From assembly GCF_003402235.1 (NCBI RefSeq), contig NZ_QEWO01000001.1:868001-932000 (forward strand): a DNA stretch of 64,000 nt. Reading direction: 5' to 3'. Positions 48,735 to 55,250 of the stretch are shown here, in pieces. The position numbers were made by a program, and so were the translations under genes. The notes beneath the pieces are model-generated. The model had not been told where the DNA came from and did not search any database. It saw nothing but the letters and a program-made list of their open reading frames with translations. Position 1 is the stretch's first letter, and the number at the start of each line of letters is the position of its first letter. Origin of the DNA: Parahaliea mediterranea (GTDB lineage: Bacteria > Pseudomonadota > Gammaproteobacteria > Pseudomonadales > Halieaceae).

Positions 48735-51404
48735 CTAGCCAGTGTTACGCATGCCGGCGGCAATGCCGGCAAAGGTCACCATGATGGCCTGTTCCAGCAG
48801 CGCTTCAGGTTCGGCACGCTGGCGCTGCAAAAGTTCCGCCTGCAGTACATTGAGCGGGTCGGTGTAAATGTTGCGCAGCTGGATGGACTGGCGAATCCAG
48901 GGGCTGTCCTCCAGCGGCGCATCCACCCCGTGCAGGGCCAGTACAGTGGCGTTATCGTGGGCCAGCTGGGTGCGCAGGTCTGCACCAATGCGCTGCAGTT
49001 CCCGGGGCACCAGGCAGTCGTCGTAGTGGGCCGACAGGCCAACGTCGGCCTTGGCGAACACCATTTCCAGCATCGACAGGCGGGTGGCGAAAAAAGGCCA
49101 GTTGGCCGCCATCTCCTCCAGCAGTGCCCGCTGGCCGCGGTCAATCGCCGCCTGCAGGGCTTTGCCCGCCCCCAGCCAGGCCGGCAGCATCAGTCGGTTC
49201 TGCGACCAGGAGAATATCCAGGGAATGGCGCGCAGGCTCTCGATGCCGCCGCCCTTGGCCCGCCGCGCCGGGCGCGAACCCAGCGGCAGGCCGGCCAGTT
49301 CCTGCTCTGGCGTGGCATAGCGAAAATACGGCACAAATTCCGGCTCGCCGCGCACCACGGCCCGGTAGGCCTCGCAGGAATCCGCCGACAGCGCCTCCAT
49401 GACCTCCCGCCATTCGGGCTTCGGCGCCGGCGGGGTGGACAGGTTGGCGCGGCAGATGGCGGTGGTGTAGGTGGCCAGGGTTTTTACCGCCAGCGAGGTC
49501 CAGCCCAGCTTGGCACGAATCATTTCGCCCTGCTCGGTGACCCGCAGGCCGTTTTCCAGCGAGCCCGGCGGCTGCGACAGCAAAGCCGCGTGGGCCGGCG
49601 CCCCGCCACGGCCAATGGTGCCGCCGCGGCCGTGAAACAGGGTCAGCTTGACGCCGTGTTCGTCGCACACCGCCAGCAATTCTTCCTGGGCCCGGTACTG
49701 GGCCCAGGAGGCCGCCAGCACGCCGGCGTCCTTGGCGGAATCCGAGTAGCCGATCATCACCATCAGCCGGCCGTCGATGTGGCCCCGATACCAGGCGTCA
49801 TCCAGCAGGCTGGCGATCACCTCCCGCGCCCGGGACAGGTCGTCCAGGGTTTCAAACAGCGGCGCCACCGGCAGGTCGAAGGGGCAGCCGGTTTCGCGCA
49901 GCAGCAGATGCACCGCCAGAATGTCCGAGGCCTGGCGCGCCATGGAAATCACGTAGGCGCCCAGGGCGTCCTCGGGCTGGCGCGCCACCACTTCGCAGGT
50001 GGCCAGCACTTCCGCGGCGTCCTCGGAGGGCTGCCAGCGGGCCGGGATCAGCGGCCGGCGGCTGGACAGCTCCTGCAGCAAAAAGGCGCAGCGGGCTTTT
50101 TCATCCCACTCGGCATAATCTCCCAGGCCAAGGTAGCTGGTGAGCTCCGACAGCACCTGGGTGTGGCGGGCGCTGTCCTGGCGGATGTCGTGACGCAGCA
50201 GATGAACCCCGAAGCAGCGCACCCGGCGCAGCAAATCCAGCAGGCCGGCATTGGCAATGGCCTGCATGCCGCAGTCGAGCATGGAGTCATAACAGGCTTT
50301 CAGCGGGGCCCACAGCACCGCTTCGTCCAGTGGTGCCAGATCGCCGCGCCCGCCATTGTCCAGCACCGCCTCGATGGCAGCGAGGTGGTCGCGCAAAGTA
50401 GCGCGCAGATCCCTAAGCACCGCGCGGTAGGGTTCGTGGGCGTCGCCAGAGAGCGCCCTGAGCGGTTCGTTGCAGTGGGTCATGGACAGCTCTTCCACCA
50501 GCTGCTCCACATCCTTGAGGTAGAGGTCGGTGGCCTGCCAGCGGCTCAGCCACATGACCTCGGCGGTCACCTCGTGGGTAACGTTGGGGTTGCCGTCGCG
50601 GTCGCCGCCAATCCAGGACACAAACGTGACCGGCGCCGCCTCCAGCGGCAGGCCCTGGCCGCAGGCTTCCTGCAGGGCGCTGTCCAGGCGGCGCAAAAAT
50701 TCCGGCACCGCCCGCCACAGGGAATCCTCCACCACAGCAAAGCCCCACTTGGCCTCGTCCACCGGGGTGGGGCGCTGCAGGCGAAAGTCGTCGCCGTACC
50801 AGATCTGGGCGATCAGCTCCCGCAGCCGCGTGTGCAGGCGCTGCTGCTCGCGCTCGGTGAGCCCGCCCAGTTCCAGTTGGGACAGGCAGCGGCCAATTTC
50901 CGTGTGCTTGTGGATGAGGGTGCGACGCATGATCTCGGTGGGGTGGGCGGTCAATACCAGCTCGATGCGCAGATTGTCGATGGTGTCGACAAGCTGCTCC
51001 CGGGAGATGCCCTCCTCCGTCAGCTCCGCCAGGGTGGCCGACAGGGCACGGGACGCTGAAAACAGCGGGTCCATCTGCCGCGACACCGTGTGGTGCTGGT
51101 CGGCAATGTTGGCCAGGTTCAGGAACTGGGAGAAGGCCCGCGCCACCGGCACCAGCTGGGCGTTGTCGAGATTGCGCAACACCGCCAGCAATTGCTCGCG
51201 CTCGACGCTGGAATCATCGCCGGAGGCCAGCCGCGCGGTTTTCGACAGGCCGCGAATTTTCTCGATCAGCGCCAGAAACTCGGGGCCCTCCGCATCGGCG
51301 ATGGTCTCCCCCAGCAGGCGCCCGAGAAAGCTGACGTTGCTGCGCAGGCCGCTGTAATCGGCCTGTCCTTCTTCGTTTTCCACTGCTGCTTCTACCGTTC
51401 CCAT
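48735..51404 (-). CDS. ppc: Phosphoenolpyruvate carboxylase
   Basis: Ppc carboxylates PEP to oxaloacetate, refilling the TCA cycle. The 889-residue length is standard. The catalytic His H154 lies in LVLTAHPTEIMRRT, the second conserved segment is LFHGRGGTIGRGGAPAHAAL, and LPAWLGAGKAL and the C-terminal MRNTG are also present. The ATG follows AAGGAA. It lies 13 bases after gap, making it the last gene of the eda-gapX-gap-ppc transcript. That is notable because ppc is usually separate; it ties anaplerosis to Entner-Doudoroff control. Confidence 0.98.
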   Translation of the reverse strand: MGTVEAAVENEEGQADYSGLRSNVSFLGRLLGETIADAEGPEFLALIEKIRGLSKTARLASGDDSSVEREQLLAVLRNLDNAQLVPVARAFSQFLNLANIADQHHTVSRQMDPLFSASRALSATLAELTEEGISREQLVDTIDNLRIELVLTAHPTEIMRRTLIHKHTEIGRCLSQLELGGLTEREQQRLHTRLRELIAQIWYGDDFRLQRPTPVDEAKWGFAVVEDSLWRAVPEFLRRLDSALQEACGQGLPLEAAPVTFVSWIGGDRDGNPNVTHEVTAEVMWLSRWQATDLYLKDVEQLVEELSMTHCNEPLRALSGDAHEPYRAVLRDLRATLRDHLAAIEAVLDNGGRGDLAPLDEAVLWAPLKACYDSMLDCGMQAIANAGLLDLLRRVRCFGVHLLRHDIRQDSARHTQVLSELTSYLGLGDYAEWDEKARCAFLLQELSSRRPLIPARWQPSEDAAEVLATCEVVARQPEDALGAYVISMARQASDILAVHLLLRETGCPFDLPVAPLFETLDDLSRAREVIASLLDDAWYRGHIDGRLMVMIGYSDSAKDAGVLAASWAQYRAQEELLAVCDEHGVKLTLFHGRGGTIGRGGAPAHAALLSQPPGSLENGLRVTEQGEMIRAKLGWTSLAVKTLATYTTAICRANLSTPPAPKPEWREVMEALSADSCEAYRAVVRGEPEFVPYFRYATPEQELAGLPLGSRPARRAKGGGIESLRAIPWIFSWSQNRLMLPAWLGAGKALQAAIDRGQRALLEEMAANWPFFATRLSMLEMVFAKADVGLSAHYDDCLVPRELQRIGADLRTQLAHDNATVLALHGVDAPLEDSPWIRQSIQLRNIYTDPLNVLQAELLQRQRAEPEALLEQAIMVTFAGIAAGMRNTG

Positions 51405-51417
51405 ACCCGGTTCCTTC

Positions 51418-52416
51418 TTACCAGCTACCTACCCGGGAGAGCAGGTCACATACGCGGCTGGAATAGCCCCATTCGTTGTCGTACCAGTTAAGCACCCGCA
51501 GGTAGCGATCGCCAGTCACGGCGCTGAACCCTGAATCGTAGATCGACGAGTGCGAGTTGCCGATGATATCGGAAGACACGATCGGTTGGTCGCTGAATTG
51601 TAAAATGCCATGCAGGCGCTCGGAGGCCGCCGCCTCGCGCACCACCTGGTGAACATCGTCCACGCGAATGGCCTTGCCCAGCTTGACGAACAGATCCACC
51701 ACCGAGCCGTCCGGCACTGGCACCCGGGCGGCAATGCCGTGCAGCTTGCCCTTGAGCTGTGGCAGCACTTCCCCCACCGCCTTGGCGGCGCCGGTGGAGG
51801 TTGGGATGATGTTCTCGGCGGCGGCCCGGCTGCGGCGCCAGTCGGAATGGGGCACATCGGCCAGGCGCTGGTCATTGGTGTAGGCGTGCACAGTGTTGAT
51901 CACGCCCTCTTCGATGCCAAAGGCATCGTTCAGCACCCGCGCCATGGGCGCCAGGCAGTTGGTGGTACAGCTGGCATTGGAAATAATGCGGTGATCGGCA
52001 CTCAGGCCGTCTTCGTTCACCCCCAGCACCACGGTGTAGTCCACCGGGTCCGCCGCGGGCACGGTGAGAATCACCCGCTTGGCGCCGGCCTCTAGGTGCT
52101 GCTTCAGTTGCTCGCGCTTGCGGAACACGCCGGTGGACTCCACCACCGCGTCAATGCCCATCTGCGCCCAGGGCAGGTCGGCGGGGTTGCGCTCGCTGAG
52201 CAGCTTGACGCGGCTCTTGGGAGTCACAAAGTGGCCGTCTTCAAGCTTGAGGCTTTTGCCGAAGGGGCCCATGACGGTGTCGTAGTTGAGCAGGTAGCGC
52301 AGAGCATCCGGGTCGAACAGGTCGTTGATGGCAACCACGTCCACCCCTTCCACGTTTTCCAGAATACGAAATACCGAGCGGCCGATGCGGCCAAACCCAT
52401 TGATGGCGACTTTCAT
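51418..52416 (-). CDS. gap: Glyceraldehyde-3-phosphate dehydrogenase (catalytic)
   Basis: This is the active GAPDH, 332 residues, which oxidises glyceraldehyde 3-phosphate to 1,3-bisphosphoglycerate. The NAD fold starts INGFGRIGRSVFR. The catalytic C150 lies in SNASCTTNCLAP and H177 in VHAYTNDQ. The phosphate-binding TGAAKAVGEVLPQLKGKL and AARVPVPDG are intact, as is the C-terminal WYDNEWGYSSRV. It begins one base after the stop of the Cys-less paralogue and is preceded by AGGAGG, so the two are translated in close coupling. Confidence 0.97.
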   Translation of the reverse strand: MKVAINGFGRIGRSVFRILENVEGVDVVAINDLFDPDALRYLLNYDTVMGPFGKSLKLEDGHFVTPKSRVKLLSERNPADLPWAQMGIDAVVESTGVFRKREQLKQHLEAGAKRVILTVPAADPVDYTVVLGVNEDGLSADHRIISNASCTTNCLAPMARVLNDAFGIEEGVINTVHAYTNDQRLADVPHSDWRRSRAAAENIIPTSTGAAKAVGEVLPQLKGKLHGIAARVPVPDGSVVDLFVKLGKAIRVDDVHQVVREAAASERLHGILQFSDQPIVSSDIIGNSHSSIYDSGFSAVTGDRYLRVLNWYDNEWGYSSRVCDLLSRVGSW

Positions 52417-53439
52417 TTACGCGGCCTCCTGCTTGCGGTCCAGTTCGGCGTAGAGGCGCACCACGTCCAGCAGACGGGCGGCGTGCCCCAGGTTTTCGTA
52501 CCAGCTCAGGCACTTGATGATGTGGTTGCCGGCTTTGATGGTGCCCCTGGCATCAAACAGCAGGGACAGGGCGCTGCCGATCACATCGGAGGACACAATC
52601 GGGTCTTCCGCCACCGCCACCACCCCCGGGTAGTCGCCGGCGGCATCGCGCACCGCCTGGGTGATGGCCTCTGGCGTTACCTTCGGGTCGCTGATCACCA
52701 GGTTCAAATCCAGCAGGCAGCCCTCGTGAATCGGCACATTCAGTGCGGCAGTGGTGATTTTGCCCGCCATGGCCGGCAGGATGTGGTCCAGCCACTGCCC
52801 CGCCTCGTGGCTGTTGGGAATGATGTTCTCGGCGGCCGAGCGGCTGCGGCGAAAATCCGAGCCGGCGTAATCCTGCAGGGCCTGGTCGGAGGTGTAAGCG
52901 TGCACGGTGGTCATGCTGCCGCATTCAATGTCAAAACGCTGCGACAGGATGTGCAGCAGCAGCGCCAGCGCGGTGGTGGTGGCGGAGCCGGCGGACACCA
53001 TGCGGTCACCGGCGGCAATGGTGTCACCATTGATGCCAGGCACCACAATGCGGTCGATGCCATCCAGCGGCAGGGTGCGCAGCAGCACCCGCGGCGCGCC
53101 GTTGCCCAGGTGGTCCTGCATTTCCGCTACGCTGCGGTATTTGCCGGTGGAATCGATCACGGCATCCACGCCGAACATATCCCAGGGCATTTCCGCCGGC
53201 TGGTCGATGCGCATCAGGCGCGAGCGAAAACGCGGGTTCACCAGAAAGTTACCCTGCAGGGTATGGCGCTCGGGCTCTGCCACCTCGGAGCACAGCAGGT
53301 AGTGCAGGATGTCGGCCTTGCCGATGTCGGCAATCGCCACCACTTCCACATCGTCGCTGCGCGATGCCAGGTCGTAAATCTGCCGGCCGGTCTGGCCAAA
53401 ACCCATGATGCCAACGCGAATGGGCGCAGGTTGTGCCAT
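52417..53439 (-). CDS. GAPDH-like protein lacking the catalytic cysteine (probable pseudoenzyme)
   Basis: From the ATG at 53439 (GGAG at 8 bases) it has 340 residues; another ATG two codons earlier is possible. The GAPDH fold is clear: GIMGFGQTGRQIYDLASRSD, a VHAYTSDQ with H180 and WYENLGHAARLLD. The catalytic C is replaced by Ala at 153 (GSATTT in place of SCTTNC), and the second Cys is lost as well. The TGAAKAV phosphate loop reads NSHEAGQW and the Arg of AARVPVP is Asn (LNVPIHEG). It should not carry out the normal phosphorylating reaction. It sits between eda and gap in the same operon. It may regulate, scaffold or bind a sugar phosphate. The frame is intact, so decay is not evident. Confidence 0.9.
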   Translation of the reverse strand: MAQPAPIRVGIMGFGQTGRQIYDLASRSDDVEVVAIADIGKADILHYLLCSEVAEPERHTLQGNFLVNPRFRSRLMRIDQPAEMPWDMFGVDAVIDSTGKYRSVAEMQDHLGNGAPRVLLRTLPLDGIDRIVVPGINGDTIAAGDRMVSAGSATTTALALLLHILSQRFDIECGSMTTVHAYTSDQALQDYAGSDFRRSRSAAENIIPNSHEAGQWLDHILPAMAGKITTAALNVPIHEGCLLDLNLVISDPKVTPEAITQAVRDAAGDYPGVVAVAEDPIVSSDVIGSALSLLFDARGTIKAGNHIIKCLSWYENLGHAARLLDVVRLYAELDRKQEAA

Positions 53440-53454
53440 TGTCATTTCTCCGTT

Positions 53455-54090
53455 TCAGTTGTTGTCCGTGGCCATGGCGCTTGCCGCCAGGGCCGCAATG
53501 CGATCCCACTGCCCCTCGGCCACCAGCGCTGGCGCCACCATCCACGAGCCGCCGCAGCAGATCACGTTGGGCAGGGCCAGGTAGTCGCGGAAGTTGTCAG
53601 GGTTCAGCCCCCCGGTGGGGCAAAAGCTCACCTGGGGGAAGGGGCCGCCGAGAGCCTTGAGCATGGGTATGCCGCCCAGCGCGGCGGCAGGGAACAGTTT
53701 GAACGTGTCCAGGCCGTAATCCAGGCCAAGCATGATGTCGGACGGCGAGGCCACGCCAGGCACCAGCCCCACCCCACTCTGGCGCGCCGCCTGCAGCAGG
53801 CCGCTGGTGAGCCCTGGGCTAACGGCAAAGTCCGCCCCGGCCGCCATGGCCCTGTCCAGCTCGGCACCGTTGGTGACCGTACCGGCGGCAATCAGCAGGC
53901 CCGGCACCTCTGCCTTTACCGCGGCAATGCCCTCCAGCGCCGCAGGCGTGCGCAGGGTCAGCTCCACCGCCGGCATGCCCGCCTCCAGCAGGGTGCGCGA
54001 CAGGGTCACGGTGCGCGCCACATCCTCCACGGTAATCACCGGCAAGACGCGGCAGGGCTTCAGGGTGGCTCTGATCTCGGATGGCTGCAT
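53455..54090 (-). CDS. eda: 2-dehydro-3-deoxy-6-phosphogluconate (KDPG) aldolase
   Basis: Eda splits KDPG into pyruvate and glyceraldehyde 3-phosphate, the last step of the Entner-Doudoroff pathway. The 211-residue protein keeps the catalytic E43 and R47 (VELTLRTP) and the Schiff-base lysine K131 (DTFKLFPAAALGG), with VSPGLTSGLLQAARQ and CPTGGLNPDNFRDYL also typical. It follows GAGGCGG and is first in the operon, with a HexR-type box 21-39 bases upstream. edd and zwf are not in the window. Confidence 0.97.
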   Translation of the reverse strand: MQPSEIRATLKPCRVLPVITVEDVARTVTLSRTLLEAGMPAVELTLRTPAALEGIAAVKAEVPGLLIAAGTVTNGAELDRAMAAGADFAVSPGLTSGLLQAARQSGVGLVPGVASPSDIMLGLDYGLDTFKLFPAAALGGIPMLKALGGPFPQVSFCPTGGLNPDNFRDYLALPNVICCGGSWMVAPALVAEGQWDRIAALAASAMATDNN

Positions 54091-54110: not shown

Positions 54111-54129
54111 GTTGTTTTATTACATTTTT
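54111..54129. promoter_or_regulatory. HexR-type operator at eda
   Basis: One copy of the 19-bp element GTTGTTTTATTACATTTTT lies 21-39 bases before the eda start. Its TTGT-N-ACA structure resembles the sites bound by HexR in Pseudomonas and Shewanella. It is identical to the copy at hexR. Confidence 0.7.
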
Positions 54130-54335: not shown

Positions 54336-54354
54336 GTTGTTTTATTACATTTTT
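54336..54354. promoter_or_regulatory. HexR-type operator at hexR
   Basis: The second identical copy lies 57-75 bases before hexR and covers a likely -10 element, which would allow self-repression. With the flanking T it reads TGT-N9-ACA, the HexR half-site spacing. Confidence 0.7.
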
Positions 54355-54410: not shown

Positions 54411-55250
54411 GTGAGCCTGCTGGCGGAAATGCGCGACACGGAGGCCCGGCGCAGCAAGTCCGAGCGCAAGCTCATCGAGCATATCCTGCGCGCGCCAGAG
54501 GCGGTGCTGAACACCCCCATCGCCCGCCTGGCTGCTGCAGTGGGCGTGAGCGAGCCCACCGTCAACCGTTTTTGCCGCGCCATGGGCGCCCGGGGCTTTC
54601 CGGATTTCAAATTACAGCTGGCTGGCGAACTCGCCCGCGCCCGGCCCAGCATGACCCGCGACATCGAGCCGGGCGATTCCGGCAGCCACGTGGCGGCCAA
54701 AATTTTTGAAGCCACCGCCGCCAGCCTGGCCAGCGCCCACAACGCCCTGGACACCAGCGCCCTGGAACAGGCGGTGGACGCCCTGGATCGGGCCCGCTCC
54801 ATCGCCCTGTGCGGCCTTGGCGCCTCGGCCTCGGTGGCGCTGGACGCCCAGCACAAGCTGCTGCGCTTTCAGACGCCTGTGGTGGCGCACACCGACATCA
54901 TCAACCAGCGCATGCTCACCGCCAGCCTGCAGCCGGACGACTGCCTGCTGTGTATTTCCTACACCGGCCGCACCCGGGCCATTACCGAAATCGCCCAACT
55001 GGCACAAAACAGCGGCGCCACTGTGATCGGGCTCACCAGCCCGGGCTCGCCGCTGGCCAGGGCCTGCACCCTGGTGCTGGGCGTGGCCGGCGGTGAAGAC
55101 ACCGACCTCTACACCCCGATGACCTCCCGCATTGCCCAGTTGGTGATGATCGACGTGCTGGTGACTACCCTCGCCCTGCGCAAGGGCCAGGCCTTTGCCG
55201 ACCACCTGGACGCGGTAAAGCAAGCCGTGGCGGCCACCCGCTCGCGCTGA
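54411..55250 (+). CDS. hexR: HexR-type RpiR/SIS transcriptional regulator
   Basis: This 279-residue regulator starts with GTG after AGGAAG. The N-terminal RpiR helix-turn-helix contains PIARLAAAVGVSEPTVNRFC and RAMGARGFPDFKLQLAGEL. The C-terminal SIS domain (about 125-270) includes ALCGLGASASVALDAQHKLL and CISYTGRTRAITEIA, where sugar phosphates bind. HexR represses glucose-catabolic genes until KDPG releases it. Divergence from eda with matching operator copies supports the call. Other RpiR members look similar in sequence, but the target context favours HexR. Confidence 0.92.
   Translation: MSLLAEMRDTEARRSKSERKLIEHILRAPEAVLNTPIARLAAAVGVSEPTVNRFCRAMGARGFPDFKLQLAGELARARPSMTRDIEPGDSGSHVAAKIFEATAASLASAHNALDTSALEQAVDALDRARSIALCGLGASASVALDAQHKLLRFQTPVVAHTDIINQRMLTASLQPDDCLLCISYTGRTRAITEIAQLAQNSGATVIGLTSPGSPLARACTLVLGVAGGEDTDLYTPMTSRIAQLVMIDVLVTTLALRKGQAFADHLDAVKQAVAATRSR

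Follow-up and report, generated by a model that had tools for sequence, protein, structure and literature searches.

A GAPDH paralogue lacking the catalytic cysteine, encoded directly ahead of an active Gap, as a candidate non-catalytic partner subunit

Few enzymes have been studied as closely as glyceraldehyde-3-phosphate dehydrogenase (GAPDH), and the usual view of its bacterial form is a tetramer of four identical, active subunits. Why, then, would a bacterium keep a second GAPDH that has lost its catalytic cysteine, and keep it directly ahead of an intact copy? The question is raised by a locus in a 64,000-nucleotide stretch of the Parahaliea mediterranea genome (hereafter the window), where the altered gene, here called gapX, lies between eda and the intact gap (Table 1). 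A first interpretation made from the letters alone (the sequence-only reading) had proposed that gapX is under selection for another role, possibly as a subunit that pairs with Gap, as a sugar-phosphate sensor, or as a scaffold linking the KDPG aldolase Eda to GAPDH.

Table 1. Features of the gapX locus, in window coordinates
Feature	Position	Strand	Basis
gapX, GAPDH paralogue without catalytic Cys, 340 aa	52417..53439	-	ORF, domain search, AF2 model
Codon GCC (Ala153) at the Cys149 position	52981..52983	-	sequence; non-Cys in aligned orthologues too
gap, intact Cys-bearing type I GAPDH, 332 aa, partner	51418..52416	-	above TIGR01534 cut-off
gapX/gap junction, gapX TAA abutting gap ATG	52414..52430	-	sequence; overlaps in the family
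eda, KDPG aldolase, lineage-specific neighbour	53455..54090	-	profile match
ppc, PEP carboxylase, downstream of gap	48735..51404	-	ORF
hexR-type regulator, divergent from eda	54411..55250	+	PRK11302 HexR above cut-off
TGTAATAAAACAAC, possible HexR operator, before eda	54111..54124	-	sequence
TGTAATAAAACAAC, second identical copy, before hexR	54336..54349	-	sequence

GapX is a GAPDH by fold. The frame is open, as first read, and an alternative in-frame ATG at 53445 would give 342 residues. Both the N- and C-terminal GAPDH domains are present (Pfam PF02800, 8.6e-38; PF00044, 2e-14), and the domain search found no added domain; at 340 residues the protein has no C-terminal extension. The AF2 model has a mean pLDDT of 91.3, and the 50 best PDB matches listed by Foldseek are all GAPDHs, the best being E. 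coli GapA (TM 0.87 by query length). With the type I phosphorylating GAPDHs (TIGR01534, Gap/GapA) GapX shares its fold and length, the Rossmann motif and S-loop, and the residues His176 and Asp181; it differs in the residues described below and in scoring 236.9 bits against a curated cut-off of 367.2 bits. GapX falls under this cut-off in all 35 pair-carrying genomes, and the window's GapX exceeds the cut-off of no model in the NCBIfam search. The family had been called a known one, which is correct for GAPDH at large.

We take residue numbers such as Cys149, and the roles attached to them, to be the usual GAPDH ones. The motif SAGSATTTA begins at GapX residue 149 and places Ala153 at the site of Cys149; Cys153 corresponds to Ala157, His176 to His180, and Arg231 to Asn234. 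The alignment bears out the earlier reading on each of these points (Cys to Ala, second Cys gone, His kept, Arg to Asn), and the phosphate loop that it described as rewritten reads His-Glu at Thr208-Gly209 in the window's GapX. The changes are no peculiarity of this locus. Among 132 distinct GapX rows gathered by two motifs away from the catalytic Cys, none carries that cysteine, whereas His176 and Ser148 are present in all 132, Asp32 in 126, and Thr150 in 117. Asn at position 231 is also found in 132 of 132, a circular count because the Asn231 motif served to gather those rows; in other sets Arg231 has given way to Asn in all 59 rows of one alignment and in 74 of the 76 GapX rows of a wider one, the 74 being those that cover the site. 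Thr206 is Asn in at least 90% of the 59 rows, in which Ser148, His176, Asp181, and one Arg of the RRSR motif are invariant. The earlier reading also held that the NAD motif survives. This stands for the adenosine side, to which most of the retained dinucleotide features belong, but not for the nicotinamide side, where the Asn313-Tyr317 region is altered and Asn313, Glu314, and Tyr317, together with Pro121, are unconserved. By alignment, GapX is thus a protein without the residues of GAPDH thiol chemistry (no Cys149, no Arg231) that has kept the fold and the S-loop.

Two readings of this residue pattern need to be weighed. First: GapX may be a stand-alone enzyme with new chemistry, using a dinucleotide and the histidine without a thioester, in the same pathway as Gap. 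The invariant Ser148, His176, Asp181, and RRSR Arg, with Asn at 231 and 206, give the site the look of a specific pocket, and the family is monophyletic and conserved. Against this, the nicotinamide-side residues named above are not conserved, and the former catalytic site is occupied by Ala, Ser, Pro, Gly, or Thr; given this variability, no replacement nucleophile is conserved there. We regard such an enzyme as unlikely. Second: invariant Ser148, His176, and Asn231, near-invariant Asn206 and Asp32, and the lost nicotinamide side together suggest a changed small-ligand pocket beside a kept adenosine site. The lack of a conserved nucleophile and the changed pocket therefore favour a non-catalytic, probably ligand-responsive subunit. 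For the suggested sugar-phosphate sensor, a phosphate ligand resembling GAP is made less likely by the missing Arg231, but a pocket may remain. Among the 76 rows, cysteines do occur near the site in a few proteins: two residues past the catalytic position in L092, L097, and L109 (a Latescibacterota-like branch, GSSSCHA) and three or four residues before it in L052, L097, L103, and L104.

How widely is GapX found? By score, an orthologue is present in 30 of 58 genomes, the window's own included (best E < 1e-90): 28 of the 37 genomes of the window's family and one genome in each of two other families. One copy (G003) is interrupted by a run of N. Close relatives do not keep the cysteine, which is missing in all 29 full aligned orthologues (A in 23, G in 3, P in 2, S in 1). 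A scan of named genomes yielded 588 stretches encoding a relative, ordinary GAPDHs among them. From the best 80 of these, 76 of 79 aligned loci have no Cys at the catalytic position, and the remaining three (L107, L110, and L112) are matches to ordinary Gap, the first of which has GapX just upstream. The best 80 of 588 span Gammaproteobacteria, Deltaproteobacteria (Myxococcota by NCBI ranks), Candidatus Neomarinimicrobiota, Bacteroidota, Latescibacterota, and a planctomycete; single taxon assignments may be wrong because most carriers are metagenome-assembled genomes. In Neomarinimicrobiota a GapX-level match occurs in 118 of 245 genomes (E < 1e-115; residues read in a subset), and 116 of these 118 have two or more GAPDH matches; one further genome (G776) has a divergent GapX copy. 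Elsewhere GapX was detected in 26 of 293 genomes of the order sample (E up to 1e-100), in 1 of 397 in a broad Pseudomonadota sample (the window's own; E up to 1e-95), and in 1 of 296 in a broad Bacteroidota sample (the genome used as centre; E up to 1e-115). At the thresholds used, this scarcity makes GapX look patchy outside Neomarinimicrobiota. A recent local event as the origin of gapX was rejected, given the orthologues in many genomes, 118 of the Neomarinimicrobiota among them. Some Neomarinimicrobiota carry two gapX-gap pairs on different contigs (L235 and L236 in G872; L237 and L238 in G832; L239 and L240 in G785).

The linkage of gapX to gap is strict: at the loci examined, GapX always comes with a Gap of one particular lineage. 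Identifying GapX by its NVP and SDQ motifs, we collected 133 distinct gapX 3' ends, and all 133 (none dropped) lead into a GAPDH start, with gapX always the first gene. The two frames overlap by 4 nt in 73 junctions and by 1 nt in 46, and the remaining 14 have a spacing of 0 to 15 nt. A Shine-Dalgarno-like motif is present at 123 of the 133; in the window it is AGGAGG (52425-52430, minus strand), inside the 3' end of gapX and just ahead of the gap start. The partner Gap has kept its catalytic Cys in 129 of 129 readable cases, the other 4 being too short. In the order sample, a partner-type Gap (E up to 1e-115) was found in exactly the 26 of 293 genomes that have GapX. Of 35 genomes selected because they carry the pair, and of unstated completeness, 16 yielded no type I GAPDH besides it, their TIGR01534 matches (E up to 1e-40) being exactly the two adjacent genes. 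In the window's genome it is not the sole GAPDH, given two more Cys-bearing GAPDH-type genes, L003 and L004 (G000:C26 and G000:C11), one of them in a 506-codon open frame. A candidate gapX-gap fusion at L097 was discarded, since the long frame there is a different frame from gapX. The occurrence of the same pair in several distant bacterial groups suggests that the inactive copy may be a built-in partner subunit of the live Gap. Two enzymes that catalyse successive steps could also be linked this strictly.

Among the neighbours scanned, only gap is constant. In the window, eda ends 15 nt from the gapX ATG and gapX adjoins gap with 0 nt between them, the tight packing noted at the outset. With the window's Eda as query, eda is present in 26 of 110 loci (some of them the same place in two collections) and lies directly upstream of gapX in 23, all of them Halieaceae or near kin; in the other three (L031, L059, and L067) it is elsewhere in the locus. 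Eda-gapX spacing, by contrast with the gapX-gap junction, ranges from 2 to 107 nt in the 15 loci, of 29, in which eda was detected. Thus, of the eda-gapX-gap arrangement proposed as a check, the gapX-gap part holds at every junction and the eda part only in this lineage. In several further Halieaceae loci ppc also follows gap. Three other gammaproteobacterial loci have related genes within ~4 kb: L059 has eda- and hexR-like genes, L067 an eda-like gene followed by ppc and then gapX, and L082 a hexR-like gene. Outside Halieaceae the flanks include a TrmB-like regulator, acetyl-CoA synthetase, lepA, phosphatidylserine decarboxylase, spoT, phosphofructokinase, and others, and some flanking ORFs have no match at all; among 20 flanking ORFs at 12 such loci no neighbour other than gap is constant. 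Because eda adjacency is limited to Halieaceae and near kin, the proposed scaffold joining KDPG aldolase and GAPDH is not supported, and we dropped it; L059, L067, and L082 count on the other side. The absence of a constant neighbour other than gap among these 20 ORFs also counts against a stand-alone enzyme.

The two TGTAATAAAACAAC sites in the eda-hexR intergenic region are possible HexR operators, and the pattern is also matched in several Halieaceae loci. Two copies are not a rare count (17 of 100 shuffles, one mismatch allowed); their placement is notable.

The sequences are those of maintained genes. A 91-row tree has one branch that sets all GapX apart (SH-aLRT 99) and another that does the same for the partner Gaps (SH-aLRT 84). 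On both the GapX and the Gap sides, the proteobacterial, Myxococcota, and Bacteroidota pairs nest among those of Neomarinimicrobiota, with many inner forks weak, and this mirrored nesting fits a joint transfer of gapX and gap. Pairwise distances of GapX and Gap correlate at 0.71 over 34 pairs, the largest value in 2000 permutations being 0.24, and GapX distances are about twice those of Gap. Of 8 close gapX pairs, which share sequences, 7 yielded a dN/dS value (0.053-0.169); 8 close gap pairs gave 0.019-0.111. Judged by these ratios, gapX is under purifying selection despite the loss of its catalytic residues. That gapX is a decaying duplicate kept by chance is highly improbable: several catalytic residues are lost and GapX evolves faster than Gap, yet the dN/dS values are low, the frames are open, and the substitutions are common to several phyla. 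We therefore rejected a pseudogene, and the absence of decay or relaxed constraint, with identical substitutions across phyla, agrees with the earlier suggestion of selection for another role.

If GapX pairs with Gap, the contact surfaces of both proteins are the place to look. In the GapX model the pLDDT falls below 50 only at 188-204, the S-loop, and modelling the active Gap as a control left its S-loop poorly placed as well (181-190 and 195-200). Such placement in both models is as one would expect of a loop predicted to be held by a neighbouring subunit. S-loop disorder was dropped as a sign of a mixed complex, the Gap control being equally disordered. Using the P, Q, and R interface segments as given in the excerpted text of PMC5119734, we found that the R loop is the best-conserved of the GapX regions compared (mean entropy 0.84, against 1.74 outside the interfaces). 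The same holds in Gap, and this therefore shows only that GapX probably remained a subunit of an oligomer. The evidence from the partner Gap is more specific. Eleven of its positions are fixed for residues seldom seen in a comparison set of 36 other Gaps, most of which come from Neomarinimicrobiota and Pseudomonadales. With the same excerpted segments (PMC5119734), 7 of the 11 lie in Q or R (expected 1.8, P 0.0005; hand-picked ranges were tried first and the published segments second) and 1 in P; the eleven belong to one clade and are not independent events. The seven are Tyr41, Thr47, Met49, Ala186, Val188, Glu201, and Asn202; Tyr41, Met49, Ala186, and Asn202 are invariant in 50 partner Gaps, and the position of Met49 is His in 33 of the 36 others. 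Three control clades show no such excess (3 of 13, 1 of 20, and 2 of 7).

Covariation between the two proteins was analysed in 121 GapX-Gap pairs (effective number 83) against 30 alignments simulated on the same tree without site-specific preferences. Both ends lie in the P interface in 28, 18, and 12% of the top 25, 50, and 100 pairs, with simulated maxima of 16, 12, and 9% and a simulated mean of 3.6% for the top 25; P was singled out only after a first look at the covariation. The Gap end lies in P in 76, 66, and 55% (simulated maxima 68, 44, and 39%); on the GapX side alone the 121 pairs show no excess over the simulations. When P, Q, and R are pooled, a set fixed in advance, 1, 6, and 5 of the 30 simulations were as high for the top 25, 50, and 100, a marginal excess, and Q and R alone gave none (121 pairs against 30 simulations). 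When partners were swapped among relatives (six runs), the share with both ends in P fell to 4-16% for the top 25 and 8-16% for the top 50 and did not drop for the top 100 (6-14% against 12% in the real pairs); full shuffling (six runs) gave 0% for the top 25. Covariation strength was dropped as evidence, since the strongest pair scored 0.42 against a simulated mean of 0.50 and same-tree simulations reach higher. The location of the covariation lends weak support to a GapX-Gap association. Fixed positions gather in Q and R and covariation in P, and the two tests therefore point to different interfaces.

Taken with the residue pattern, these data make it somewhat probable, in our view, that GapX and Gap form a mixed tetramer, probably (GapX-Gap)2, in which the GapX subunits are non-catalytic and probably regulatory. 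The pairing proposed in the sequence-only reading thus gains support: the two genes adjoin strictly and mostly overlap, they occur in the same genomes, their trees mirror each other, and the partner has changed at interface residues. In the mechanism we propose, translational coupling would yield near-equal amounts of the two proteins, which would pair across the GAPDH interfaces, and the number of active sites in the mixed tetramer would be halved. The GapX pocket, made up of the adenosine side with Asp32 and of Ser148, His176, Asn206, and Asn231, would bind a small ligand and so tune the neighbouring Gap, for example in NAD affinity or stability. In Halieaceae this module lies within an eda-gapX-gap-ppc cluster, beside hexR in the window. 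A bolder version, in which the mixed tetramer is obligate and ancient, has half its subunits ligand-sensing and non-catalytic, and spread between phyla as a two-gene module, is possible, and we advance it only tentatively.

Two further rivals bear on the interface evidence. GapX could be a separate regulator or moonlighting homotetramer that binds RNA, DNA, or a metabolite and shares only its expression with Gap. The retained adenosine side (Asp32 in 126 of 132) and the hexR gene beside the window's cluster would suit this, but GapX has no extra domain, no other region compared is as well conserved as its R-interface loop, the partner Gap is altered at its own interfaces, and the association with gap persists in unrelated genomic settings; we consider it rather improbable. 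Alternatively, GapX might serve as a structural or folding partner of Gap, a stabiliser or assembly chaperone with no ligand or regulatory role. The same adjacency and interface evidence would apply, and the constant position of gapX ahead of gap fits, whereas invariant Ser148, His176, and Asn231 would be needless in a mere stabiliser, which makes this a very unlikely account.

In the bolder version these bacteria would have a GAPDH with a dedicated inactive subunit, and part of Neomarinimicrobiota would possess no other type I GAPDH. If the mixed-tetramer reading is true, these marine and environmental organisms would differ in how a central step of glycolysis is built or controlled, and similarity-based annotation would be crediting them with a second GAPDH that is in fact inactive. 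The pair would also be a natural test of the effects of an inactive subunit on cooperativity and half-of-sites behaviour.

Known systems offer partial parallels. The chloroplast A2B2 GAPDH is built from two paralogous chains, GapA and GapB, both catalytic, with regulation by a C-terminal extension. The proposed GapX-Gap complex would be like it in being a tetramer of two paralogous chains, one of them regulatory; GapX differs in having neither the Cys nor, in its 340 residues, such an extension. Prozymes, such as the trypanosome AdoMetDC prozyme and HisZ of HisZ-HisG, are inactive paralogues or relatives that are co-inherited with an active enzyme and bound to it. GapX resembles them in having lost catalytic residues under purifying selection and in being encoded beside an active paralogue, at all 133 junctions and in the same 26 of 293 genomes; none of these is a GAPDH, however, and binding and activation of Gap by GapX would be hypothetical. 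The nearest published inactive GAPDH that we found is the trypanosomatid TbGAPDHL. According to the excerpted text of PMC4106842, it has the GAPDH fold and is predicted to be inactive, its catalytic Cys being Pro and its adenosine side seemingly kept; it is flagellar, is poorly conserved between species, and has lost the flanking Ser/Thr, and its authors regard it as evidence of a lost pathway. A GAPDH fold with the Cys replaced and the adenosine side kept is common to both proteins, but relative to that excerpt (PMC4106842) GapX is well conserved, retains Ser148 (132 of 132) and Thr150 (117 of 132), and adjoins a live Gap. A bacterial Cys-less GAPDH partner subunit did not turn up in searches of open-licence PMC papers, and the words GAPDH and glyceraldehyde do not occur in the main text of a Halieaceae genome paper (PMC10100682).

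A second Cys-less GAPDH clade was encountered in Neomarinimicrobiota (L190, L197, L198, L199, L200, and L201, from G739, G740, G905, G903, G902, and G901, respectively). No other GAPDH ORF was found in the stretches examined at these loci. Like GapX these proteins are without the Cys, Cys149 being Gly and Cys153 Ser (ASGTTNS), but they form a separate clade in the tree and keep Arg231, as well as Asn313, with IIPTTT followed by His or Trp.
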